From contig SKCR01031805.1 in the NCBI GenBank assembly GCA_019454045.1, forward strand, positions 79,831 through 143,830: a DNA stretch of 64,000 bases, written 5' to 3'. A model generated the notes under the pieces. The model saw only the letters and a program-made list of their open reading frames with translations, was not told the DNA's origin and ran no database searches. How positions within the stretch are numbered: position 1 is the first letter of the stretch; every line of letters starts with the position of its first letter. Origin of the DNA: Zanthoxylum bungeanum (Eukaryota > Streptophyta > Magnoliopsida > Sapindales > Rutaceae). Both the position numbers and the translations under genes were made by a program. Positions 7,567-64,000 of this stretch are shown one piece after another.

Positions 7567-8889
7567 TATTGGACAATTATGACACATAGCATCACTATTT
7601 GTACAGAACATGGCGTTGTTGTACAAATTATCTATGTGACAAAGGAAATTGCTATTTTATCATTTGTAATTGGATTACCGGGATTTATAAATGATAAAAG
7701 TCCATATGATTTGTACCGGATTAATAATAAATGAGACAATATTAATCCATGTAAGGTTTAATCATTAAATATCCCTAGTCGTAGTATTATCGAGACTGGA
7801 CATCGATAATGCGAAATAGGCTAGTATTACACTTGTGCGTGTTATGGAAGCGTAACGACATAGTTCTCATATATTTGGGTATTGGATACTCATGCAAGTG
7901 TAATAGGAGGTTCTGTTTACCGATGGTACGGAAACAGCTTCGCTCTAGAGAGACCCCTCGGAATCCCATTGGTGACCGGCGTAAACACACATGTATAACG
8001 CAAGCGTACGTATTGTTCAAGTAGTATAAAAAGAATCGATCCCACGAGGACTTAATACCTAAGCTATTAATTTTATGAGTTCAAATGATTACTAATATCT
8101 AACAGGTTGATTGATTGATTTGAAATGGTGACGATTCTAAATTTAAAAGCAAGTAAATAAAATTGTCGAAAGTAGGTTTTAAGAAAATTCAATATTAAAA
8201 ACTATCTAGGGTTGTGATTTCTTCCAATATTATTTAAAGATGAAGTGGTTATCTTATAGCTGGGTAAAATATTGATTTATTAACCTGGAACATTAAATTA
8301 TGTAAAAGCCTCTTCCGATGGTCAATTACAAATACCTAGTATAATCCAATTGAACCATATGCCTATGTCAACCAAATTACCTAGATTCATTAAGATTAAG
8401 TTCCAATTTAGCTACCCCCGCCCGACAGGTATATTCCTATCCTATAAGAAAATCTATTAAAAGGTTATCTATCCTTAAGGAAGATCGTGGGCTATTGAGT
8501 CTAAGGTCTTTAAACTTAAAATCCCTATGTCTAGTTCATTTTAAGTTTACCTAGTAAATTTTATTAGTGGCCAGTTAATAAAATGCATTAAGATTAAGAC
8601 TCAATAAATAAATCTTTATATTACCCAAACTATAATCTAACCCCTTATAAACCGATGATATTGGAATACATCATAACCCTAGATAACTAACTTAGTTACA
8701 ACACATAACTAGGGCTAGTAAAATGAAAAACATAAAGTAAAAATGCCAAAAGTAAAATGCGGTAAAGTAGAAATTGAAAAGTAAAATAAAATAAAATGAA
8801 ATTGCTAAGGTAAAAGGAATTACTTTTACTATTTACTATTTTAGATATCTCCCATAAAATAATATATAAACTTGTGATAATATTACCAA

Positions 8890-9112
8890 CCAGCCATATA
8901 GGCGGTAACCTGATTAAGTCAAATTAAGTCCAACCAGCCATTAAGGCGGTAATATTTGTCCATAATCCAGCCATAAAGGCGGAATCAAAATAAACCAGCC
9001 ATAAAGGCGGAACCAAAAATAAATTACCAACCGACTAATCCGGCGGTATTCTTGATTAGTAAGGTTTAAACCAAATTAAAAATGAATCACCAACCGACCA
9101 ATATGGCGGAAT
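8890..9112. repeat. Cluster of ACC-GCC / GGC-GGT dyads in the solo LTR
   Basis: Six or so degenerate units of the form ACCAGCC-ATATA-GGCGGT or ACCGACCAATATGGCGG. Each half mirrors the other. The same cluster recurs at about 30980-31170, 39665-39840 and 45760-45935. Confidence 0.7.
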
Positions 9113-9464
9113 CCTTTTTAAGTCAAATTTTAAATAGTGAATTTATTATTTTAAGGGAGATTAATCTAAATAGTAATAGTAAAAGAATTACCTTTCACCT
9201 TAGCAGGGGGAATTTACCTCCTCATGGTAAATAGTAAAAACTGTAAAAATAAAGAAAGTAAATTACTATTATTACAAAAAGTAAAATAAAATTTAATTAC
9301 AAAACTTAAATTAAAGAAACTAGAGAGAGAAACTCCATATTTACATCAAAGAAATGAGAGAGAATGGTACAACTAAAACTGAAATCTCGAGCTCAATTTA
9401 TAGGCTCGGGTAAGGGACGCGCGTCGCAATGCCCAGCTCGCGTCGCCACGCCCGTTTAGTCGAC

Positions 9465-17680: not shown

Positions 17681-19783
17681 TGTTGGTTTTTATTAAGGTG
17701 CCAAGATCAAACAAGACATGAAAACATGTGTGAATACATCAACGGAGGTAGCGGAATACTCACATCGATCGGTTGAGTCGATTTGGAGACGAATCAAGCC
17801 AAAAAGCCCACTGCCCTCACGCCAAACTGCTGCAGTTCACTGCCTCCATTTTTAGAATTTGAGCTGAGAAAACGGAGCTCCGAGCTTCGTCCGACGGATC
17901 CCGGCTCATGGGCGAACCTCCCTACCACCTTCGCAAGACTCGTAGTGTGCTAGCACTTGCGGTTTATGCCATAAAAACCCAACTCTTGCTTCCCTTATTC
18001 ACGCCAAAATAGCTTCAAAAACCAGTCCCTATTTTTCTGTTTTGGGCGTGAGAGATGAGAGAAATTTGAGAGAGATGAAGTTGTGTGTATTGGTTGCAAA
18101 AAGTGTAAATCAATTATCCTTTTTATATTTTCCAAAAATACATAATGATTTACCAATTACTTTAATTCAAAATCAAGTAAAAGTTGGAGCCAAAAGCAAA
18201 AGATGCTTTCCAACAACTTGCATCAACTATTCACATCAACTTAAGTCATATCAACTTTAATAAAGTGACATGTCTTTCAATCAATCAATCACATCAATCA
18301 ATCACATCACTCAAAGTGACATTTGATTTGACGCTTGATGTGACGAATGATTTGACGCTTGATGTGACTTGCGTCGCCGCACTCAAATTCGAAATAGAAT
18401 GCGCTCGCAATCACACTCGGGCTCGGGTTCGTTAATTCCAAATTAATGATTTTTCCGTCGCGTCGTAATTAAATGATTACGCCTAGCGAATTCACTATTC
18501 ACGTCGCTAACGAATTTATTCTAAATTAATTCGTTCGCCCGAATTAAAATCTAATTTTAATTCCGCGTCGAAATCTAATTTCGTTTAATATATAGAATAT
18601 ATTAATTTATTGATTAATTCCAAATTAATCGTTATCTCTCTCTAGACGATATTTTATCCTAGATAAAATATCTCCGTAATTAATCCTAGATTAATTTTCT
18701 CTCTCTCTTCTATATAATCCCAGATTATTCAAGAGTGCGAGTTGTGCGTCATCGGTGGATTATCGGGAAGCGACCCATGAGATCTCTGGATAAGTTGGCA
18801 GTAAATACGGTCGTCAGAGTATCCGAATCACGTACGTACCAAGTACTACGTTCTACCGATTTACGAGACAAGGTCGACTCCTAGCAAAGCACCAAGTCTA
18901 CCCAATTCTCCGGACATATCCTTATAAGAATATTAAGATCTATATCAAGCGTAGTATATACCATTGTATGTGCATATCGGTCCAGTATCGGATAATCACG
19001 TGCTAGGGCTGGGGCTGGATAAGTGTCTACCCCGTCCGAAGCACATATCGGATGTCTGGTAACATAGTCTCTATAATCGGATATACATGACCTGGTCACA
19101 ATATCCCGATTGGTTGCGCAACACTCAAGAGCACTAGTACCGTATCCTGCGTGACATCAACTCCAATATGACTGAAGTGACAATTCCGTCTTGACATCAC
19201 ACCCAATACTCTACGACTCTCTGATAAACCCAGAAGTGGTGTACTCAGAACCTGTTTAAAGTCCCCTACCACCAAAACAAAAGTTTATCGATTATCGTAA
19301 GTATTAGCGATGCAAGTCTCAGGTTAAGACTATACACCCTACCTTGATTTCGGCCTTCCATAGACACATAGTCATAATACCAATGGGATTCCGAGGGGTC
19401 TATCCAGAGCGAAGCTGTTTCCCGTACCATCGGTGAAACACGACCTCCTATCGCACTTGCATAAGTATCCAAATATATATGAGAACTATGTCGTTGTGCC
19501 CTCACAACGCACACAAGTGCAATACTAGCCTATTCCGCATTATCGATGTCCAGTCTCGATAATACTACGGCTAGGGATATTTAATGATTAATCCTTCGTG
19601 GACTGATACTGTCTCATATCATCTCAATCCAGGAACTAATCATATGGACCTCTCTTCATTTATATATCTATGGTGATCTAATCACAAATGATGAGAGTAC
19701 AATTTCCTTATTACATAGTTAATTTGCTACAACAACACAATGATCTGTGCAAATAGTGACGCTATGGGTCATATTATCCAATA
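17681..19783 (-). repeat. CopD 3' LTR
   Basis: On the + strand it reads TGTTGGTTTTTATTAAGGTG at the left and ATATTATCCAATA at the right (CA mutated to TA). It holds two TGATTTGACGCTTGATGTGA units at ~18330-18368 and CATCAATCAATCACATCA repeats. Open frames here (18042-18435, 18881-19514) are chance frames. Confidence 0.9.
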
Positions 19784-30058: not shown

Positions 30059-32079
30059 TGACCGGCGTAAACACACATTTATAACGCAAGCACACGTTTC
30101 GTTCAAGTAGTATAAAAATATTGATCCCACGAGGACTTAAAACCTTATCTATTAATTTTATAAGGTCAAATGATTACTAGTATTTAACAGGTTGTTTGAT
30201 TGATTTGAAATGGTGACGATTCTAAATTTAAAAACAAGTAAATAAAATTGTTCGATAGTAGGTTTTAAGAAAATCCAATATTAAAAACTATCTAGGGTTG
30301 TGAATCTTTCCAATCTTATTTAAAGATGAAGTGGTTATCTTATAGTTGGGTAATATATTGATTTGTTAACCTGGAACACTAAATTATGTGAAAGCCTCTA
30401 TCGATGGTCAGACACAAATACCCAGTTTAACTCAATTGAACCACATGTCTATGTCAGCCAAATAATCTTGATTCATTAAGTTTAAGTTCCAATTATGGCT
30501 ACCCCCGCCCGACATGTATATGTCTATCCTGTAAGGAAATCTATTAAAGGGTTATCTATCCTTAAGGAAGATCGTGGGCTATTGAGTCTAAGGTCTCAAA
30601 CTTAAAATCCCTATGTATAGTTCATTTTAAGTTTACCTAATCAATTTTATTAGTGGCCAGTTAATAAAAAGCATTAAGATTAAGACTCAATAAATAAATC
30701 TTTATATTACCCAAACTATAATTTAACCCTTATAAACCGGTGATATTGAAATTCATCACAACCCTATATAACTAACTTAGTTATGACACATAGCTAGGGC
30801 TAGTACAAACTTAAAAGTAAAAGCCATAAAGTAAAAATGCGAAAAAGTAAATGCGGTAAAGTAAATACTGAAAAGTAAATTACAATAAAATAAAATGATA
30901 AGGTAAAATGAATTACTTTTACTATTTACTATTTTAGATATCTCCCATAAAATAATATATAAACTTATGATAACATTACCAACCAGCCATATAGGCGGCA
31001 ACCTGATTCATTCAAATTAAATCCGACCAGCCATAAAGGCGGTATGATTTGTCCATGAACCTGCCATATAGGCGGTAAGAAAATTTAATTGCCAACCAGC
31101 CATATAGGCGGTATCCTTGATTAGTCAGGTTTAAACCAGTTTAAAATGAATTACCAACTGACCAATATGGCGGTATCCTTTTTAAGTAAAATTTTAAATA
31201 GTGAATATATTATTTTTAAGCGAGATTAATCTAAATAGCAATAGTAAAAGAATTACCTTTCACCCTAGCAGATGGAAGTTACCTCCTCATGGTTGTATAG
31301 TAAACACTGTAAAAATAAAGAAAGTAAATTACTATTATTACAAAAAGTAATTAAAATTTAATTACAAAACTTAAATTAAAGGAAACTAGAGAGAGAAACT
31401 CCCTATTTACATCAAAGAAATGAGAGAGAATGGTACAATTGAAACTGAAATCTTGAGCTCAATTTATAGACATCGATAGGCCACGGGCGTCGCAACGCCA
31501 AAGCCTTTGGCGTCGCGACGCGAGAACAGTTGATTTGGTCCACACATTTTAACTTTGACTGTTGACTCAGAGTTTGTCGGCCCAATAAGAATTTGACACG
31601 TGGCACGCGGTAGATTCGGTTCAATGAGAAAATGACACGTGGCAGAATATGATTCGCCGATGATTCGGTCCAATGAGAAGATGACATGTGTCACGCGGAG
31701 TGTCGGCACCATAGGCTTGTGACACGTGTCCTGGCGCATGTTAGCGGATCCTCTGTGATAGTGACATGTGGCAAGGCGCACGTTAGCAAAGTCAAACTTC
31801 TCAAATTCTGACCCATTGACCCGGCACACGTTAGCAGCTCTGGTGCAAGTTAGGCGTCACGACGCCAAGGTCTTGCGCGTCGCGACGCCTCAAAATTACC
31901 AAAATGCCATTTTTTTTCCAATTTTCACTGTTTTGGTCCAAATCACCTCCAGAATGTCCTGAAACTTTATTTATCTACAAAATAAAACAAAACACATCAA
32001 AATATTCACAAAACTCAAGAAACTATACAAAATATTATGTTAAATGAGTGGGAAATAGTGATAGATTTATCACTCATCA
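30059..32079 (-). mobile_element. Second solo LTR of the GypL family (2.02 kb)
   Basis: It begins TGACCGGCGTAAACACACAT and ends TCACTCATCA. The TSD CATGG lies at 30054-30058 and 32080-32084. It contains the dyad cluster (about 30980-31170) and a G-box-like group (about 31590-31830). Open frames at 31412-31962 are side products of these motifs. Confidence 0.93.
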
Positions 32080-38401: not shown

Positions 38402-38768
38402 ATATAATCCTTCAGTCATAGGTTATCCGAATTGTTCCGGAGATATAGATTAAACATCGAATCTCCGCTATGAACAATTCATGTGTCGCAACATAATTAT
38501 GATTCTTAAACAAATAATCGGAAATCATTTCTGAATCATACCTCAGCAAAGGATTTCAAAGAATCACAAATTGGACACTTAAATCCTATACACGAGACTA
38601 ACAGATCCTCTCTGGATACATCACATGATATCGTGGGTATCAGTCCATACCCGACGAACATGCGGAGGTCTGATCATAAAAGATCATTGACGTGACTGTC
38701 ATCAAAGTACTGAGGATATCTCACATATCCACAGTGGTATCACAAGTCAAAAGAGCTAATATGCTATT

Positions 38769-40601
38769 TGACCGGCGTAAACACACACGTATAACGCAAG
38801 CGCACGTACCGTTCAAGTAGTATAAAAATATCGAACCCACGAGGACTTAATTCCTACTATTGTTATTAGTTGTTGATACTATTTATTTACAAATATCTAA
38901 TTGAGGGAGAAGTGAATGATTGCTTGAAATGATCTGCTTTGTAGATTTGCTAAATAAATAAATAAATAAAAAGACAAAATAAAATACTAAGGAAAATAAA
39001 AGACTCAAAGTTCTAGGGTTGTGAATCTTTCTAATATCAATTAAAAGATGAAGTAGTTAAATCATAGTTGGGTAAATTATTGAATTATTAATCTGGAACA
39101 CTAAATTATGTAAAAGCCTCTTCCGATGGTCATTTACAAATACCTAGAATAATCAAATTGAACCATATGTCTATGTCAATTAAATTACCTAGATTCATTA
39201 AGATTAAATTCCAATTATGACTACCCCCGCCCGACAGGTATATGTCTATCCTGTAAGGAAATTTATTAAAGGGTTATCTATCCTTAAGGAAGATCGTGGG
39301 TTGTTGAGACTAAGGTCTTAAACTTAAAATCCCTATGTCTAGTTCATTTTAAGTTTACCTAATCAATTTTATTAGTGATCAGTTAATAAAAAGCATTAAG
39401 ATTATGACTCAACAAATAACTCTTTAATTACCCAAACTATAATCTAACCCTTTTTAAATCTGGTGATATTAGATTTAATCACAACCCTAGATATTTAACT
39501 TAGTTACAACACATAACTAAAGCTGATATAAACTTAAAAGACAGAAAATGAAATTGCAGAAAGTAATTAAAATAAATAAATGAAATGCTAAGGTAAAAGA
39601 AAATAACTTCTACTATATACTATTTAGATATCTCCCAAATATAAATATATAATCTTGTGATATTTTAAACCAACCGTCCGGAATGGCGGTATCGTGATTA
39701 AGTCAAATTCAAATATACCAGCCATAAGGCGGAACAGAAATATAAATTTAAACCAACCGACCTAGAATGGCGGTATCCTCATTAAGTCAGGTTTAACCAG
39801 TTTAAATTGAATAACCAACCGACCTAGAATGGCGGTATCTTTTTATTAATTCAGATTTTAAATAGTTTATATATTATATTTTAAGGGAGATTAATCTAAA
39901 AAGAAAAGTAAAAGAATTACCTTATTACCTCAGCATGGTGAGTTTACTCCCTCATGGAAGAATAGAATTACTACTACAAAGCGTAAATAAAACTGAATAA
40001 AAGAAGAAAATATGAAGAACTCTCAATTAATTTATAAGGATTTCAGAGGAAGAGGTACATTTGAAACTAAAAATTCGAAATCTATTTATAGGCAAAAAAA
40101 TCTAATTTTTTATTATTATTTTCTGATTTTTATTTTTTATTATTTTATTATTTTTATATTTTTTTTTTTTGGATCGCTGAATTTTCGACACGTGGCATGG
40201 TGTGCTAAAAAAGACGGCTCGTTGAATTTTTGACACGTGGCATGGTGGTGCAATTACCAAAATACCCTCGGTGTCGGGATGCCCAAAATTACCAAAATAC
40301 CCTTTTCGTCAAATTTCATAGTTTTGCTCCAAATCACCTCCAGAATATCTTGAAACTTTATTTCGGTGTCGGGATGTCGAAAATTACCAAAATACCCTTT
40401 GTGTCGGGATGCCCAAAAATTACCAAAATACCTTTTTTGCCAAATTTCACAGTTTTCCTCCAAATCACCTCCAGAATGTCCTGAAACTTTATTTATCTAA
40501 AAAATAACACAAAACACATCAAAATATTCACAAAACTCAAGAAACTATACAAAATATCAAGTTAAATGAGTGGGAAATAGTGATACATTTATCACTCATC
40601 A
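38769..40601 (-). repeat. GypL 3' LTR (1.83 kb)
   Basis: TGACCGGCGTAAACACACAC to ATCACTCATCA on the + strand. ACC-GCC/GGC-GGT dyads lie at about 39665-39840. Two GACACGTGGCATGGTG motifs lie at about 40188 and 40221. A partial internal duplication (AATTACCAAAATACCC ... CCTGAAACTTTATTT) occupies 40250-40500. The ORFs here are chance frames present in both LTRs. Confidence 0.95.
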
Positions 40602-40646
40602 CACCCCCAAACCTAACATTTTGCTAGTCCTCGAGCAAAATAAAAT
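40602..40646 (-). other. GypL polypurine tract region
   Basis: On the minus strand, GTTAGGTTTGGGGGTGTG abuts the 3' LTR. The G-rich run is the presumed plus-strand primer. CTCGAGGACTAGCAAAAT precedes it. Confidence 0.75.
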
Positions 40647-42210
40647 AACATAATAAAATTTTAACTAAGCCACTTTCGTAGGGATCACGATTGCATTTAG
40701 CATATGCAACAAGCCTTTAAACCCATAGGTGTCCCTAGTGGACGAGTTGTAGTCTCGTGAAGGTTTACAGCAATGATACCCACAAACATTTTACAAAAGT
40801 AAAAAGGTAGTGAAACTAATGCACACAAAAGCAAAAAGACAAGAGAAATAAAGAAGTTAGTGACTAATCATGTGAAACTTCTACTTCAAGTTATTAGTTG
40901 TTTTGTTTCATTCTAAATTACTAAATAAGTAAATTCTCCGATTATTTTTACCATTCTTCATATACACAGCCAACAAAATATTAAACAACTCATTTTTGCC
41001 CACAACGGTCATAAGTGCAGTTGATAATAGAGTAATATTTTTGTCCTAAAGTTCTATCAGAATTCACATCTTTTGTAGTAATGGAATAAATTTTCTGATT
41101 TTTCTGATTTTTTCTTTGATTTTTTTCTCTATTTTTTATTTATATACAATATCTTCCATCTATGTAGCAAGCTTTAGGTCGGTGACTCCCAAACCAGTTG
41201 GCTTTAGGGCATCAGGTGTTAAGACACCCCTAAGGACTTAATTACTCAGACTTCAGATATATATACATATATATAAATTTTTCATCATTTTTGATCCATG
41301 TAGCGAGCTTTGGGCCAATGACTCCCAAACCAGTTGGTTTTAGGGCATTAGGTATTAAAATACCCTTACAGACTTAATAACTCGGATCTCAGATGTTTTT
41401 TTTTTTTTTTTATTCCATTACTTTTTTTTGAGATGCTTCTCCAATTAAACTATAGCACTGAATATTACAATCTTTTCAATTTTATCCTATGTCCGTATGT
41501 TACCATGTATGTTGATAATATCTACCAACTAAGTATATGAAGATTCATTTTAGTCAGTTTTATGGAGAATTTACAGATTTAATAATTCAAAAGGAAATAA
41601 ACAAAAATTAACTTGTTTTGAATTAGGTTTGAAATACGTCTCAGGAGTGAGAATTCCTTACACAGCTATTTCTTACCAATTTCATCTTTTTAGTCAACAT
41701 AACAACCACATATTTCTACTAGTCATAAAACTATAATTTACATGTTTTTTTTTCCAAAGGCTCTCGCTGACGAAGGATTGTTCACAACTAGGACTCCCCA
41801 CTCAAGGGTTCAAGCGACCTAGTGAACGCACCTTTTTTATACCTTATGGTACGTGCCAACGAATTTATGGTGTGTGACTAACTGTCGAATGGAATTCCCG
41901 TTGTAGATTCCCCAGAGGGAAGGTGGAGCGAGGCTCACTTAAATACCCAAGCCCCTTAGGCTCTTATCGCTTGTTGTCAGGAATAAACAACGAGTCCTCC
42001 AAACTAGTCTGTCACAACACGCTACAAGTGAATGATTATCTAGGTGCCTCCACAACGTTTCCTTATAAAAAGGTAGTGAGTGAAGGAAGACACCAAACCA
42101 TCACCTAGCTTTAAATATGCCCTTTGTTTTTATTAATTTTTTTGTATTTTTCGAAAAATTTTGGACTAAAAATAAAAACACAATACAAACAAGTACTATT
42201 AACTATTCCT
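40647..42210 (-). other. GypL 3' untranslated region, no gene
   Basis: No coding signal on either strand. A direct repeat of ~100 bases with period 136 lies at 41157-41260 and 41293-41397. Each copy has GACTCCCAAACCAGTTGG and a TTAGGGCAT stretch. The poly-T run at 41398-41411 and T-rich runs elsewhere are simple sequence. The ORF at 41923-42108 is not supported. Confidence 0.6.
41157..41397. repeat. Direct repeat, period 136 bp
   Basis: ATGTAGCAAGCTTTAGG (41162) recurs as ATGTAGCGAGCTTTGGG (41298). Both are followed by GACTCCCAAACCAGTTGG and GACTTAAT(T/A)ACTC. Confidence 0.8.
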
Positions 42211-42248
42211 CACCCCCAAACCTAAATGAGACATTGTCCTCAATGTCT
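42211..42248 (-). other. Athila/Tat landmark motif and hairpin
   Basis: The minus strand reads ACATTGAGGACAATGTC and then a G-rich GGTTTGGGGGTG. GACATTG-TCCT-CAATGTC (42230-42247) is a perfect 7-base stem. From memory, similar sequence sits downstream of the last gene in Athila/Tat elements. Confidence 0.6.
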
Positions 42249-42308
42249 TAAACAGTAGAAGAAGAGTTTAGAAGATAGTACCTGGTTGGCTGAATTACTA
42301 CAAGCAAA

Positions 42309-43004
42309 TTAAAGGTTAAGATCCAGATTAACACGACGCCTCTTACCACGATCATCATCAAACCATTTTATCTTTGAAATGATAGGGTCAACTTGTGGTT
42401 CATAGGCTACGAGTTGGTCAAGTAGATCTGGAGCAGTTCTGGCAGTAAAAAGGAGTTCTTTCATAGGTTTTGACACGAACCCATTTCTCTGAGCATCATC
42501 AAGAAACACACAAAGAAAATCATAAAATCCATCAACGTTGAGCAGTCCAAGCGGTTTCTGGTGTATGTTCAGGTTCGCCCAAGATAGTACTACAAAAATT
42601 TCCTCCAATGTGCCTAACCCACCTGGCAGAGCAATAAAAGCATCAGAACGGTTAATCATTTCAACCAGTCGTTCAGACATACCTGGCATGATCAGTTCCT
42701 CTCCGTTTGATGATCCAATAAGATTTGCCTCTACCAAGGGTTTTGGGATGATTCCCAAAACATGACTGCCTCCTTCTTGTACGGCCTTTGAAACGATCCC
42801 CATTAGTCCAAGATTGCATCCGCCATATATTAAGTGCATATTCCTTGCAGCTAAGACTCGACCCAATTCCTGTGCTGCTTCTATGTATTGTGGTTTAGTA
42901 CCAACAGTACTACCGCAAAACACACAGATGTTCTCAACTCGTCTTCTTGAAGTGGCTTCCATTTTTTTTTTATGTATTTCTTTCTCAACTCTGGATGCCT
43001 TCAA
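42309..43004 (-). CDS. LOG-family cytokinin riboside 5'-monophosphate phosphoribohydrolase, intronless, inside GypL
   Basis: LOG enzymes cut the ribose phosphate from cytokinin nucleotides to release active free-base cytokinin in the cytosol or nucleus. The 231-codon frame is full length for the family. It has CVFCGS at 27-32, YGGCNLGLMG at 60-69, the Arg of MSER at 112, and PGGLGTLEE at 127-135, the family's PGGxGTxxE signature. The second ATG (residue 15, 42962, MEATSRRRVENIC) fits known starts better than the first; both are in frame. There are no introns, while the plant LOG genes I know are split, so a copied mRNA is likely unless the parent is intronless. Oddities: the usual third Gly of the YGGG loop is Cys, MHERK is MSERL, and the tail ends LDLNL. 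It lies in the 3' part of GypL and would be transcribed from its 5' LTR. Which LOG subgroup it comes from is unsure. Confidence 0.93.
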   Translation of the reverse strand: MKASRVEKEIHKKKMEATSRRRVENICVFCGSTVGTKPQYIEAAQELGRVLAARNMHLIYGGCNLGLMGIVSKAVQEGGSHVLGIIPKPLVEANLIGSSNGEELIMPGMSERLVEMINRSDAFIALPGGLGTLEEIFVVLSWANLNIHQKPLGLLNVDGFYDFLCVFLDDAQRNGFVSKPMKELLFTARTAPDLLDQLVAYEPQVDPIISKIKWFDDDRGKRRRVNLDLNL

Positions 43005-43416
43005 AAGTGCAATGACAGGCTGAATTTATAAGACCTGAAAAGGATGAGTAATAAAAGCACTAGTATCTTCCAAAGGAAGCTTGTTAGCTAAACAACAAAA
43101 GAAATCGTGAAAGGTCAAAAAGTCTGGATCCTGTCTACGAAAATAAAGATAATTGCGACAGAAAAGCAAATCAAAGCAATTATTAAGGCAACAAAATTGT
43201 GTACGCAATACGCCATTCGTTTAGTATAAATTCATTAGGATGCGTCTAAAGAAATCATTCTTTACTCAGCCATCACAAATGAAATAGCTCTCTTCTTTGT
43301 GATTGTCAAACATCATTCCTTCTGTCTTAAAATGCTCCATTTGTGCTTTTCCCTACAAAATAACACACAAAATTAAAAAGTTCACACAAAATATGAAAAC
43401 AAATTACAACAAATTG
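43005..43416 (-). other. GypL spacer upstream of LOG, no gene
   Basis: It lies between the GGGAGGCAACCC landmark and the LOG start. The 60-codon ORF at 43026-43208 shows no motif. It may include captured 5' untranslated sequence of the LOG mRNA. Confidence 0.45.
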
Positions 43417-43465
43417 CATGGGTTGCCTCCCTGCTAGCGCTAAATTTTTCGTCTTTAGCCAGACG
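43417..43465 (-). other. Athila/Tat landmark: GCGCT..GGGAGGCAACCC with upstream hairpin
   Basis: The minus strand has CGTCTGGCTAAAGACG (a 5-base stem, 43450-43465), then TTTAGCGCT, then GGGAGGCAACCC (43420-43431). From memory this arrangement follows the pol gene in many Athila/Tat elements. Confidence 0.65.
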
Positions 43466-43592
43466 TGACTGAAATCTATCTGTTAAGGCGGTTTCATCGT
43501 CGTTTTGGATGTCCGATCAAAGACAATCCCGTGAGCGTTGCTTTTGAATGGTCTCTTCCAACGGTAAAATGGCAAAAAGAGTTTTGTCTCAT

Positions 43593-43838
43593 TCAGTGTT
43601 TGTGCCACCTTTTTAATCTTTGTTGCTCCACTGGTTCCTGAAAAGAAAGAAGAAAATCAGGAGGTCTTGTATGGTGCTTGACTTGGAATGGAAGTTTCAT
43701 TCTGTCAAACTTCTGTGTGATATCTTTAAATTGTAACTCCCCAAAACAGCGATGTTTTTCCTGAATGTTCTGGATCTTTGATAAGTTCAGACATTTGCTC
43801 CTCCATTTGCTCTGTTTCTTGCTCCACCTTTTCTTCAC
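43593..43838 (-). pseudogene. Possible frameshifted continuation of the GypL gag-related frame
   Basis: An 81-codon frame rich in K, R and Q (KDITQKFDRMKLPFQVKHHT). It overlaps the 3' end of the 331-codon frame and runs to a stop at 43593, before the post-pol landmark. It could be the remains of a region where pol was deleted. No family recognised. Confidence 0.35.
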
Positions 43839-44721
43839 AGATGAATTTCAAAATTTCCTCGTTCAGTTCTTCATCTGTCATCTGTGAAATACATGCTTCA
43901 AAATTGTCAACCTGAGGATGAAAAGAAATGTCAGATTGTAGGTCTTCATCCTCTGATTTGGGTGAAATGATTGGCTCAGATAGATCTTCTTCAAACATTT
44001 GTGCAATGGAATCTCCAAGATCTTCATTTTGAGGATACATAATTCCATCCTCAATTCTTGTTGCAGTTGGTACAAACAACTCAGCTTTATCCTCGTCAGA
44101 ATCAGAATAATAAAAATCAAATTGAGACTTTGTTGGTTTGGGCTCCTGAACCGATATCTCAGATTCTTGATACTGCTCAGCCTCATCCTCTGTTATGATG
44201 TCATGATGAGTCTCAGGATATTCGAAGGCTTCTTCAGTAGTATTTGAATTTGCTCCGTGAGATATGTGATTCAGGTTCTCTGTTAATTGTCTAACTTGAT
44301 CTGTCATTCTCTGTATAGACGCCGCTTGACTCTGAATTTTTACATTAAATTGAGCTTCCCGTTCCTCGAACAAATTTTTGAGCATGTGAATCAACTGATC
44401 TTCCTCTGATGGATCTGGTTCTTGATAAAGATCATAGATGGATGGCGGATAAGATGGAAAATGTGATGATTCTACATACCTTGAATGATTCCAATAATTC
44501 TGCCACTCTGAAAGGTATATACATTGATCGCTCGGGTGGTTACCATCATATATTACACATCTCCCCAATTCATTCTGATGAGCAAATGTAGTGTTGCTTG
44601 GTTCTGGCTTCCAGTGATAGTTGTTGGGCTGGACAACAGGCCTCAGAAAACTAGATTGTTGCTCCCGGATTTGAGGTGTATCTTTTTCTAGTAAAACTCG
44701 TAATCTTTCAAAATGTTCCAT
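43726..44721 (-). CDS. GypL gag-related reading frame (non-autonomous element protein)
   Basis: A 331-codon frame from MEHFERLRVLLEKD (44721). An in-frame ATG at 44931 lies inside the LTR and gives a hydrophobic lead with no sense, so I reject it. Residues 55-67 (CVIYDGNHPSDQC) resemble the Athila-type Gag zinc knuckle CX2CX3HX4C, with the second Cys changed to Tyr. Residues about 110-155 look like a coiled coil (LIHMLKNLFEEREAQF onward). The rest is very acidic (many E, D and S). TTTTGTTTTCAG|GTGATTG just upstream looks like a 3' splice site. A second frame (43593-43838, 81 codons) overlaps the end and may be its continuation after a frameshift. It has no capsid, protease or pol. The product could help package the RNA or be inert. 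Confidence 0.6.
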   Translation of the reverse strand: MEHFERLRVLLEKDTPQIREQQSSFLRPVVQPNNYHWKPEPSNTTFAHQNELGRCVIYDGNHPSDQCIYLSEWQNYWNHSRYVESSHFPSYPPSIYDLYQEPDPSEEDQLIHMLKNLFEEREAQFNVKIQSQAASIQRMTDQVRQLTENLNHISHGANSNTTEEAFEYPETHHDIITEDEAEQYQESEISVQEPKPTKSQFDFYYSDSDEDKAELFVPTATRIEDGIMYPQNEDLGDSIAQMFEEDLSEPIISPKSEDEDLQSDISFHPQVDNFEACISQMTDEELNEEILKFICEEKVEQETEQMEEQMSELIKDPEHSGKTSLFWGVTI

Positions 44722-44835
44722 TTTTTCAATCACCTGAAAACAAAAGAAAGAAATAAAAATTGCAGATAAAAAACAAAGAAAATTAGATACAAGTAAATTA
44801 GATAGCTTCAAAATTAATAACTCAAGAAAAATAAG

Positions 44836-44853
44836 TCCCCGGCAACGGCGCCA
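44836..44853 (-). other. GypL primer binding site (tRNA-Asp)
   Basis: The + strand TCCCCGGCAACGGCGCCA equals the 3' end of plant tRNA-Asp plus CCA, 18 of 18 from memory of that tRNA. It lies 6 bases inside the 5' LTR. It fixes the element on the minus strand. Confidence 0.9.
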
Positions 44854-44859
44854 AAAACT

Positions 44860-46691
44860 TGACCGGCGTAAACAAACACGTATAACGCAAGCGCACGTAT
44901 CGTTCAAGTAGTATAAAAATATCGATCCCACGAGGACTTAATTCCTACTATTGTTATTAGTTCTTGATACTATTTATTTACAAATATCTAATTGAGGGAG
45001 AAGTGAATGATTGCTTGAAATGATCTGCTTTGTAGATTTGCTAAATAAATAAATAAATAAAAAGACAAAAGAAAATACTAAGGAAAATAAAAGACTCAAA
45101 GATCTAGGGTTGTGAATCTTTCTAATATCAATTAAAAGATGAAGTAGTTAAATCATAGTTGGGTAAATTATTGAATTATTAATCTGGAACACTAAATTAT
45201 GTAAAAGCCTCTTCCGATGGTCATTTACAAATACCTAGAATAATCAAATTGAACCATATGTCTATGTCAATTAAATTACCTAGATTCATTAAGATTAAAT
45301 TCCAATTATGACTACCCCCGCCCGACAGGTATATGTCTATCCTGTAAGGAAATCTATTAAAGGGTTATCTATCCTTAAGGAAGATCGTGGGTTGTTGAGA
45401 CTAAGGTCTTAAACTTAAAATCCCTATGTCTAGTTCATTTTAAGTTTACCTAATCAATTTTATTAGTGATCAGTTAATAAAAAGCATTAAGATTATGACT
45501 CAACAATAACTCTTTAATTACCCAAACTATAATCTAACCCTTTTTAAATCCGGTGATATTAGATTTAATCACAACCCTAGATATTAACTTAGTTACAACA
45601 CATAACTAAAGCTGATATAAACTTAAAAGACAGAAAATGAAATTGCAGAAAGTAATTAAAATAAATAAATGAAATGCTAAGGTAAAAGGAAATAACTTCT
45701 ACTATATACTATTTAGATATCTCCCAATAATATAATATATAATCTTGTGATATTTTAAACCAACCGTCCGGAATGGCGGTATCCTGATTAAGTCAAATTC
45801 AAATATACCAGCCATAAGGCGGAACAGAAATATAAATTTAAACCAACCGACCTAGAATGGCGGTATCCTCATTAAGTCAGGTTTAACCAGTTTAAATTGA
45901 ATAACCAACCGACCTAGAATGGCGGTATCTTTTTATTAATTCAGATTTTAAATAGTTTATATATTATATTTTAAGGGAGATTAATCTAAAAAGAAAAAGT
46001 AAAAGAATTACCTTATTACCTCAGCATGGTGAGGTTACTCCCTCATGGAAGAATAGAATTACTACTACAAAGCGTAAATAAAACTGAATAAAAGAAGAAA
46101 ATATGAAGAACTCTCAATTTATTTATAAGGATTTCAGAGGAAGAGGTACATTTGAAACTAAAAATTCGAAATCTATTTATAGGCAAAAAAATCTAATTTT
46201 TTATTATTATTTTCTGATTTTTATTATTTTATTATTTTATTATTTTATTATTTTTTTTTTGGATCGCTGAATTTTCGACACGTGGCATGGTGTGCTAAAA
46301 AAGACGGCTCGTTGAATTTTTGACACGTGGCATGGTGGTGCAATTACCAAAATACCCTCGGTGTCGGGATGCCCAAAATTACCAAAATACCCTTTTCGTC
46401 AAATTTCACAGTTTTGCTCCAAATCACCTCCAGAATATCTTGAAACTTTATTTCGGTGTCGGGATGTCGAAAATTACCAAAATACCCTTTGTGTCGGGAT
46501 GCCCAAAAATTACCAAAATACCCTTTTTGCCAAATTTCACAGTTTTGCTCCAAATCACCTCCAGAATGTCCTGAAACTTTATTTATCTACAAAATAACAC
46601 AAAACACATCAAAATATTCACAAAACTCAAGAAACTATACAAAATATCAAGTTAAATGAGTGGGAAATAGTGATACATTTATCACTCATCA
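44860..46691 (-). repeat. GypL 5' LTR (1.83 kb)
   Basis: TGACCGGCGTAAACAAACAC to ATCACTCATCA on the + strand. It is nearly the same as 38769-40601; the differences are scattered single bases plus the length of a T/A tract near 46,200-46,260. It contains the dyad cluster at about 45760-45935 and two GACACGTGGCATGGTG motifs near 46,276 and 46,321. It would drive LOG transcription. Confidence 0.95.
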
Positions 46692-46959
46692 CTATTCGAC
46701 TCGTAAAGATTCCTATTGATATTGGTGTACAATCTATCATGAATCTTTGAATGAGTCATTCAGTATTTATCCAATAAATATCTACATGTCTATATGAGTC
46801 TCCCAAGACTCATGATTTACTGAGACAAACTATTAGAACAATTCTAATATATGACACGTTCCGATCTCACGGGTTTACTAACTGAAAAAGTATGTAAACA
46901 TTGACTAGAACAATTAAAGAATGAATTGTATTGTGATATTTCTCAGTAATAATTGTGGC

Positions 46960-62749: not shown

Positions 62750-64000
62750 CTATAGCCAGTCACTCAAGCATCTAATACCTGAACTATGTATGTGTCGCTC
62801 AAACTTTTCCCGAGGAATTATTTTCGTCAGCGGATCTGCAATGTTGTCCTCTGATGCGATCTTTTCGATCTTCACATCGCCACGATGTATGATCTCTCGA
62901 ATCAGATGGAATCGTCGAAGAACATGTTTGGATCGTTGATGAGACCTTGGTTCCTTAGCCTGCGCTATGGCCCCGCTATTGTCACAATACAATAAAACGG
63001 GCTCAGCTGCTAATGGAACTACTCCTAATCCAACTAGGAATGTTCGGATCCAAACCGCTTCCTTTGCTGCTTCAGCTGCTGCAATGTACTCCGCTTCAGT
63101 TGTTGAATCGGCAACAGTATCTTGCTTGAAAGATTTCCAGCTCACTGCTCCGTTATTCAAGCAAAATATGTACCCGGTTTGCGACTTGAAGTCGTCTCTG
63201 TCGGTTTGGAAACTTGCATCGGTATACCCAGATACCTCAAGTTCTCCATCTCCATAGATTAAGAAAACATCCTTAGTTCTCTTAAGATACCTAAGGATAC
63301 TCTTAACCGCCATCCAGTGATCCTTTCCTGGATCGGCCTGATATCGACTACACATGCTCAAAGCATAGGACACATCAGGTCGTGTACATATCATGGCATA
63401 CATGATCGATCCAACTGCCGAGGCGAACGGAGTCCGACTCATGTTGTCTCTCTCATCTTGTGTTTTAGGACACATTTCCCTAGATAGATAGACGCCATGT
63501 GATGTTGGCAACAGTCCCCTCTTGGACTGATCCATGTTGAATCTCTTCAACACTTTATCAATATATGTACTCTGGGAGAGTCCAAGTAGCCTTCTAGATC
63601 TATCCCTGTAGATCTTTATTCCTAGAATAAAAGCTGCTTCTCCCAGATCTTTCATGGAGAATTTCAATGAAAGCCAAGCTTTCACCGACGTTAACATGGG
63701 AATGTCATTGCCTATAAGCAATACATCGTCGACATAAAGGACAATAAAAGTCAGTGCACTCCCACTAACCTTCTTATATACACAAGGATCATCTACGTTT
63801 TGAATGAAATCATATTCTTTTATGACCTCATCAAAACGTTGGTTCCATGACCTCGATGCTTGCTTCAGTCCATAAATGGACCGATTTAACTTACAAACCT
63901 TGTTTGCAAGTCTTGGTGCGATAAAAACCGTCAGGTTGTTGCATAGAAACATCCTCCAACAGGTTTCCGTTAAGGAAAGCGGTTTTAACGTCCATCTGCC
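62750..64000 (-). pseudogene. CopM pol, RT and RNase H end, with one frameshift, running off the window
   Basis: The 400-codon open frame (62750-63952) holds the RT palm YVDD (residues 73-76) and fingers motif SIYGLKQASRSWN. RNase H has its acidic residues at D245 (YTDAS), E286 (TTEAE), D324 (YCDNSGA) and D373 (ADPLTK). It would copy element RNA into DNA in the particle. Upstream, QMDVKTAFLNGNLLEDV continues in another frame to the window edge, so a one-base change near 63,910 (T run) breaks the gene. The ATG at 63952 is only the first Met after that break. Otherwise the domain is intact, making this the least decayed copia pol here. Confidence 0.9.

Follow-up and report, generated by a model that had tools for sequence, protein, structure and literature searches.

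We analysed a 64,000-nucleotide stretch of the Zanthoxylum bungeanum genome (contig SKCR01031805.1, positions 79,831 to 143,830; hereafter the window), in which a long terminal repeat (LTR) retrotransposon carries an open reading frame (ORF) for a LONELY GUY (LOG)-type protein. The element lacks pol, was inserted recently and belongs to a very abundant Ty3/gypsy family. Within this family the LOG frames show the pattern of purifying selection in the lineages that multiply, and they do so also within the pol-less class. The best overall explanation, which we hold with moderate confidence, is that LOG is a working part of the element, has probably changed its job and is kept by selection in pol-less copies.

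A recently inserted pol-less member of an abundant Ty3/gypsy family

The window element has two LTRs, a target site duplication (TSD), a primer binding site (PBS) and a polypurine tract (PPT), the set of features that defines an LTR retrotransposon (Table 1). An earlier reading of the stretch, made from the letters alone (the sequence-only reading), had described a young element, and this was borne out: the LTR pair differs by 6 transitions and 10 transversions (16 substitutions; Kimura two-parameter distance, K2P, 0.0088), and the TSD CTATT stands at both outer ends. At substitution rates that we take to be 1.3e-8 to 7e-9, this divergence gives an insertion age of ~0.34-0.63 million years. 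Also as described, the LOG frame lies between the near-identical LTRs, is open on the minus strand and carries the PGGxGTxxE motif, with no introns. The length of 231 codons was counted from a TTG and has to be corrected, since the ATG at 42962 gives 217 amino acids. The four gag-pol pieces of a long copy of the family (L079, below) had no match in the window at E 1e-5, in agreement with the reported absence of pol. The primer site is indeed present, and its tRNA-Asp type is an assignment that we presume. Upstream of LOG, a gag-like ORF gave no match above cut-off in a Pfam scan; it holds what we take to be a zinc-knuckle-like stretch and a QSQAASI stretch.

The family is very large. A LOG-specific degenerate 29-mer (WANLNIHQKP) matched 9,712 + 9,561 = 19,273 sites in the 3.96-Gb assembly, and a 24-mer across the PBS junction matched 17,683 sites. 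An ordinary-LOG 26-mer (MHQRKAEMA), which differs from the 29-mer in degeneracy, matched 24, and the control was 0 for each of the three patterns. One 8-kb element per 29-mer site would amount to ~150 Mb. In 8/8 fetched 9.2-kb loci the LTR, PBS and LOG lie in one sense. Of these eight, four are complete LTR pairs, three have LTRs truncated by the limits of the fetched stretch and one is a tandem, and the TSD is unreadable in the last four. Together with the window element, the complete pairs represent five insertions at different sites, with the TSDs AATAG (window, minus-strand reading), TGATT (L034), TTGCC (L037), TACAC (L038) and CTCA (L031, 4 bp). The sequence-only reading had held that LTR-LOG-LTR loci with different TSDs would reveal a mobile family, and four such loci were thus found beyond the window. 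Thirty further loci, fetched for their best LOG scores, all have the 217-codon ATG frame. Two arrangements may be LTR-LTR recombinants: L035 is seemingly in tandem sharing one LTR, and on C45499 two LOG copies (12357 and 28499) stand 16 kb apart.

The copies fall into size classes. Among 94 listed PBS sites, 42 are followed, 1-15 kb downstream, by a LOG in the same sense; as controls, an antisense LOG was counted at 6 and a sense LOG upstream at 2. The count leaves out six listed primer sites on C152-C153, LOG sites being covered through C151. PBS-to-LOG distances are 2.2-2.3 kb in 15 copies, 3.5-4.3 kb in 16, 6.3-6.7 kb in 6 and other values in 5, and the window copy falls in the shortest class. 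In the long copy L079 (~6.7 kb) Pfam finds, in order, PF03732, RVP_2 (protease-like, 17.0 bits, under its cut-off of 20.3), PF00078, PF17917 and PF00665, followed by an extra ORF and then LOG. A second long copy, L080 (~6.7 kb), has the same gag-pol pieces by reading without Pfam, and the gag-pol frames are interrupted in both. Both have the order LTR end, PBS, gag, protease, reverse transcriptase (RT), RNase H, integrase (INT), an ORF resembling viral cysteine-rich or nucleic-acid-binding proteins (CRP/NABP-like ORF) and LOG, in which gag and then protease, RT, RNase H and INT follow one another as in Ty3/gypsy elements. Copies of the middle class vary: gag, protease-like parts and the C-terminal stretch of an integrase remain in L036; in L032 and L033 the gag-like ORF remains, and an extra stretch precedes LOG. 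Compared with the long copies, the window element shows 84-93% identity in the LTR end, PBS and leader, 77-79% in the short stretch before LOG and 87-88% in LOG and its flanks. Because the LTR end, PBS, leader and LOG with its flanks are shared, the window element is a pol-less relative of the long copies.

By exclusion the family would be Athila-like. It shares with Athila and the OTA clade, in an assignment made without reference sequences, the non-chromovirus gag-pol order, an extra gene between INT and the 3' LTR, a primer site of tRNA-Asp type and a single RNase H. LOG in the long copies stands where, as we take it, Athila elements have an env-like gene, and the extra genes here are instead the CRP/NABP-like ORF and LOG. 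Athila is described as belonging to the OTA clade without an additional RNase H (in a passage of PMC6317226).

Table 1. Features of the LTR element in the window.
Feature	Position	Strand	Basis
LTR element	38769-46691	-	two LTRs, TSD, PBS, PPT
3' LTR	38769..40601	-	LTR pair alignment
5' LTR	44860..46691	-	LTR pair alignment
TSD CTATT, left copy	38764..38768		flank sequence
TSD CTATT, right copy	46692..46696		flank sequence
PBS CCCCGGCAACGGCGCCA, 17 nt	44837..44853	-	sequence
PPT GGTTTGGGGGTG, adjoins 3' LTR	40602..40613	-	sequence
gag-like ORF, 331 aa from first ATG	43726..44721	-	ORF reading
LOG ORF, 217 aa + stop, intronless, same sense as element	42309..42962	-	ORF, profiles, model
PGGLGTLEE, phosphate-binding and catalytic motif	42600..42626	-	sequence, alignment
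C-terminal tail KRRRVNLDLNL (basic patch and LxLxL, EAR-like; predicted disordered)	42312..42344	-	sequence, model

Selection on the LOG frame

We followed change at the three codon positions on a tree of 40 loci plus the window; the loci were picked from the 29-mer matches in the order of their contigs and without regard to LOG score. The ratio of change at position 2 to change at position 3 of LOG was 0.23 on inner branches (95% 0.16-0.32) and 0.50 on end branches (0.41-0.61), the inner ratio being the lower in 100/100 codon resamplings. On inner branches, LOG position 3 summed to 1.06, near the flanks, and positions 1 and 2 to the far lower values of 0.38 and 0.25. The flanks, divided into three artificial positions on the same tree, gave inner sums of 1.58-1.63 upstream and 1.11-1.30 downstream, with little mutual difference.

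The same pattern was seen within the short and middle classes; the samples for all classes were chosen by PBS and LOG patterns only (the long sample being 4 of the 6 loci at 6.3-6.7 kb). In the short pol-less class, 7/15 copies have an intact LOG, and the ratio was 0.089 on inner branches (resampling 0-0.29) and 0.27 on end branches (0.17-0.39), with the inner value lower in 59/60 resamplings. The middle class has 4/15 intact LOG frames and ratios of 0.165 (inner) and 0.29 (end), the inner value being lower in 56/60.

For the gag-like ORF just before LOG, 24 copies (23/29 of the other best-scoring LOG loci and the window) gave a ratio of 0.69 regardless of branch type (resampling 0.51-0.93 and 0.46-1.02). 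For LOG, these copies gave 0.22 (end) and 0.10 (inner), values biased low by drawing the copies on LOG score, so that only the gag value is unbiased. Because the gag-like ORF shows little constraint, LOG is held by selection more than the rest of the coding remnant. A ratio of nonsynonymous to synonymous change (dN/dS) of 0.12 from the 30 best LOG scorers is biased low and was not used for the selection claim.

Ahead of the frame (window 42963-43132, minus strand), CCTTTTCAG lies 72 nt before the LOG ATG and might serve as a splice acceptor in making a subgenomic mRNA for LOG. Its AG is kept in 30/40 copies, and conservation is 0.85 in the motif and 0.73 elsewhere, which is suggestive only.

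The LOG protein and its neighbour in long copies

The window protein matches PF03641 (E 2.4e-35, 122 bits, cut-off 27) and TIGR00730 (163.6 bits, cut-off 96.35), which places it in the LOG/TIGR00730 family. Against the NCBIfam equivalog NF058542 it scores 116.9 bits, under the cut-off of 300, in a comparison made for the window protein alone. Its best solved relative is AtLOG3 (2a33; E 5.4e-60). This is also the best PDB match of the AlphaFold2 model (predicted local distance difference test, pLDDT, 82.8), with a template modelling (TM) score of 0.94 by target length and 0.76 by query length; residues 201-217 fall below a pLDDT of 50.

In CgLOG, Arg99 and Glu122 were proposed to be catalytic, Met96, Lys100 and Glu121 form the adenine site, and Met96, His97, Lys100, Glu125 and Trp129 were proposed to line the prenyl site; alanine changes at AMP-binding or catalytic residues, Lys100 among them, nearly abolished activity, S19A excepted (passages of PMC4979012). 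Among 68 full-length relatives that share the C-terminal tail of the window protein, Arg99 is kept in 61/68, Glu122 in 68/68 and the PGGxGTxxE positions in 66-68/68. In these proteins Lys100 is replaced (by L, I or M) in 67/68 and Glu125 (by H, Q, T and others) in 67/68. AtLOG3 has both residues, as do 22/31 rows of the other group, which includes tail-less fragments of the tailed kind. At the five prenyl-site positions the window copy reads M, S, L, V and W, so that three of the five differ. It also has Cys at the third Gly of YGGG, where 66/68 tailed relatives have Gly. The sequence-only reading had called the gene cytokinin-activating. PGGxGTxxE, Arg99 and Glu122 are kept, but the label is unproven and doubtful, given the altered pocket and the NF058542 score. 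Because pocket residues are replaced, it should give way to "LOG fold, catalytic residues kept".

The protein ends in a basic patch and an LxLxL stretch (LDLNL in the window). A similar ending is found in 79 of the 120 listed relatives, with a basic pair before it in 78, and was not seen in the ordinary LOGs compared. LxLxL is a putative EAR motif and the basic patch a putative nuclear signal. A tree built from 89 proteins sets the tailed rows (68, counting the window) on one side of a branch with SH-aLRT 92; 18 ordinary LOGs group together with 100, and three Xanthoceras models stand beside the tailed rows. These three (P0016, P0018 and P0036) have doubled LOG stretches, the first of which keeps the Lys100 and Glu125 places where readable, and are possible intermediates.

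The gene is not a fresh capture: LOG stands downstream of pol in the two long copies read, and tailed relatives occur among the listed matches in Populus, Reevesia, Diplodiscus and Paulownia. The idea that a LOG of today's host was captured recently was likewise considered and rejected, the host loci showing only ~40-65% identity to the window LOG per exon and ordinary LOGs being separate from the tailed clade. Three host loci, found by the 26-mer motif and not included in the tree, were read; all three are interrupted by introns, retain Lys100 and Glu125 and end in an ordinary C-terminal exon. When an ordinary LOG protein was compared with the genome, 150 listed matches covered the query in one open frame at 50-53% identity. 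These are element-type copies, and 145/150 are without a stop.

The extra ORF of the long copies (L079:5710-6108) lies between integrase and LOG and matches PF01623 Carla_C4 (28.9 bits, cut-off 20.9) and PF05515 Viral_NABP (27.6, cut-off 23); it was found also in L080, L036 and L017. There are 98 database relatives at E 0.01, many of 182 aa, with Rhamnella, Xanthoceras, Acer and Citrus among the named sources. Of ten relatives scanned with Pfam, seven reach at least one of the two cut-offs and three reach neither. In the gene models P0203 (Acer yangbiense) and P0211 (Citrus x changshan-huyou), a CRP-like protein runs into a LOG-like stretch, itself just under the Pfam cut-off (24.5 of 26.3 and 24.3 of 27). 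Given these fused models, the adjacency of CRP-like protein and LOG seems to exist in other genomes. Against a viral structure library, the CRP-like model (pLDDT 63.7) had four plant-virus silencing suppressors and a 15-kDa protein at ranks 1-5 of 20, all five of which we take to be from betaflexiviruses; at E 0.76-2.5 these matches are not significant, and with so weak a model the likeness is a hint only. The CRP-like protein had no match in the window and none at E 1 in a PDB sequence search. Viral contigs contained 7 pattern matches to the CRP query, none of them a relative, and 20 loci matching the LOG alignment with 29-48% identity in the best segment. A 98-aa CRP-like protein filed under Clostridioides difficile (P0210, on a 293-base contig) is probably plant DNA contamination.

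Elsewhere in the window, two LTR-like stretches (7973-9451 and 30059-31521) have 76-77% identity to the element LTR over ~1.2 kb and 87% to each other. No primer-site sequence of the element type was found elsewhere in the window, and these stretches probably derive from a related family, as solo LTRs or truncated ones. An open frame of 400 codons (62750-63952, minus strand) reads like what we take to be a piece of Ty1/copia RT-RNase H.

Explanations and known systems

If LOG is a working part of the element, pol-less copies would be moved in trans by proteins of their long relatives and would keep LOG since its product helps the copies that carry it. The likeliest biochemistry would be that of a nucleotide 5'-monophosphate phosphoribohydrolase, or of a nucleotide-binding protein, with a base specificity other than cytokinin nucleotides. 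The tail would bring the protein into the nucleus and into contact with a TOPLESS-type co-repressor, or would interfere with host regulation in some other way. In long copies LOG and the suppressor-like CRP would together form a small accessory module directed at the host. A fuller version, which is tentative and to our minds on the improbable side, is that this Gypsy lineage carries a two-gene, virus-style module aimed at the host, namely an RNA-virus-type cysteine-rich suppressor and a LOG minus its cytokinin pocket but with a nuclear EAR-type tail; pol-less derivatives would have lost gag-pol and the suppressor-like gene and yet be selected to keep LOG, whose product must then help the encoding copies.

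Several observations weigh against LOG as a selected, working part. Of the 40 loci sampled by 29-mer, 36 are broken and only 4 have an intact LOG, and by the 29-mer pattern 52/94 listed PBS sites have no downstream LOG. The end-branch sums of the flanks (3.4-7.2) exceed that of LOG position 3 (2.6), so that the flank alignments are noisy, and the inner estimate for the short class rests on little change (position 3 sum 0.156). Allelic or duplicated contigs may inflate the counts for the 29-mer, the PBS 24-mer and the 26-mer; L021-L023, for example, share one frame. LxLxL is short and basic tails are common. The clade was assigned by exclusion, from the one RNase H region of L079 with little room before INT, and not by comparison with reference RT sequences.

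There is also the possibility that LOG in pol-less copies is a passenger and that the selection signal comes from autonomous copies, through recombination or repeated new deletion. Template switching lets retroelements recombine, the size classes stand side by side, and the window element and long copies share LOG with its flanks at 87-88%; recombination with the latter could account for the constraint in the pol-less class. The 4 long copies sampled all lack an intact LOG, which weighs against a working LOG; it also weighs against a passenger, as intact frames are more frequent in short copies (7/15). With the gag-like ORF so little constrained, LOG is moreover what is held, and we give the passenger explanation a low probability. 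Somewhat better placed, but still unlikely, is that the element spreads an ordinary cytokinin-activating LOG, raised active cytokinin leading to cell division and so to an advantage for cells where the element replicates. The conservation of Arg99, Glu122 and PGGxGTxxE and the fit of the model to AtLOG3 are as expected from this. Carlavirus CRPs are described as silencing suppressors, and one of them, CVB p12, as a transcription factor that induces hyperplasia (passages of PMC12172455), so a growth module would fit the long copies. On the other side stand the near-universal replacement of Lys100 and Glu125 in the tailed proteins, both being present in AtLOG3, the near-complete loss of activity on alanine change of AMP-binding and catalytic residues, with Lys100 among them, and the score of the window protein, taken alone, below the equivalog cut-off. 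The sequence-only reading itself had allowed that LOG might exist only here, or be a normal host gene lying by chance between two solo LTRs. This we reject outright: the TSD is at the outer ends, the PBS and PPT are inside, the pattern occurs at 19,273 sites, LTR-LOG-LTR recurs with different TSDs, and the element LOG is intronless, unlike the three host loci. Nothing was found in its favour.

The family has partial precedents. That no LOG-carrying family had been described proved incorrect, as a YgdH (LOG-type) domain is reported in Gypsy LTR elements of Citrus sinensis, C. clementina and Populus trichocarpa (a passage of PMC9289625, citing Steinbauerova 2011). Those elements likewise carry a LOG-type domain inside a plant Gypsy element, and Populus LOGL10 proteins and the Citrus model P0211 are sequence relatives of family components here. 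They differ in being reported, in that passage, as a brief domain match, whereas copy number, structure classes, selection, pocket, tail and CRP-like partner are described here. The same source mentions orchid Ty3/Gypsy elements with an m6A RNA demethylase domain, again a host-type accessory enzyme fixed in a Gypsy lineage, but another enzyme. The element LOG resembles plant LONELY GUY phosphoribohydrolases (AtLOG3, 2a33) in fold, catalytic Arg and Glu and PGGxGTxxE, and departs from them in being intronless, in the replaced Lys100 and Glu125, in the basic LxLxL tail and in its thousands of pattern sites. Similarly, the L079 ORF resembles the CRP (NABP) suppressors of carlaviruses and betaflexiviruses in exceeding both Pfam cut-offs and in its five best structure matches, but the plant family has 182 aa with a conserved C-terminal half, and those matches are not significant. 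Maize Bs1 is reportedly an LTR element with host gene sequence and no pol, a low-copy capture; the window element shares the host gene sequence and the lack of pol with what is said of Bs1, but here the gene is under selection in a very abundant family.

In the literature searched, beyond which lie many subscription papers, YgdH was found together with retrotransposons in the available part of PMC9289625 alone, and no link between carlavirus, nucleic acid binding protein and LTR retrotransposon was found, the names of PF01623 and PF05515 giving only unrelated papers. In the available part of a review of extra ORFs (PMC7264820), the terms lysine decarboxylase, Rossmann, Citrus, Populus and nucleic acid binding are absent, and in that of a paper on Retand elements (PMC11963269), decarbox, YgdH, cytokinin, carlavirus and zinc are absent. 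Gypsy elements with extra ORFs, even LOG-type ones, are therefore already known; what we did not find in print are the abundance, the suppressor-like partner, the altered pocket and tail, and selection in pol-less copies.

A non-autonomous retroelement would be expected to shed all its protein genes. Selection that maintains one of them in copies without pol implies that the encoding copy itself benefits, and the thousands of copies of this family make a direct test possible. If this is true, retroelements use hormone-type enzymes and virus-type suppressors, and some plant "LOG" gene models, among them perhaps the tailed LOGL10 proteins of Populus, may represent genes of elements, with active sites that have changed, and not cytokinin enzymes.

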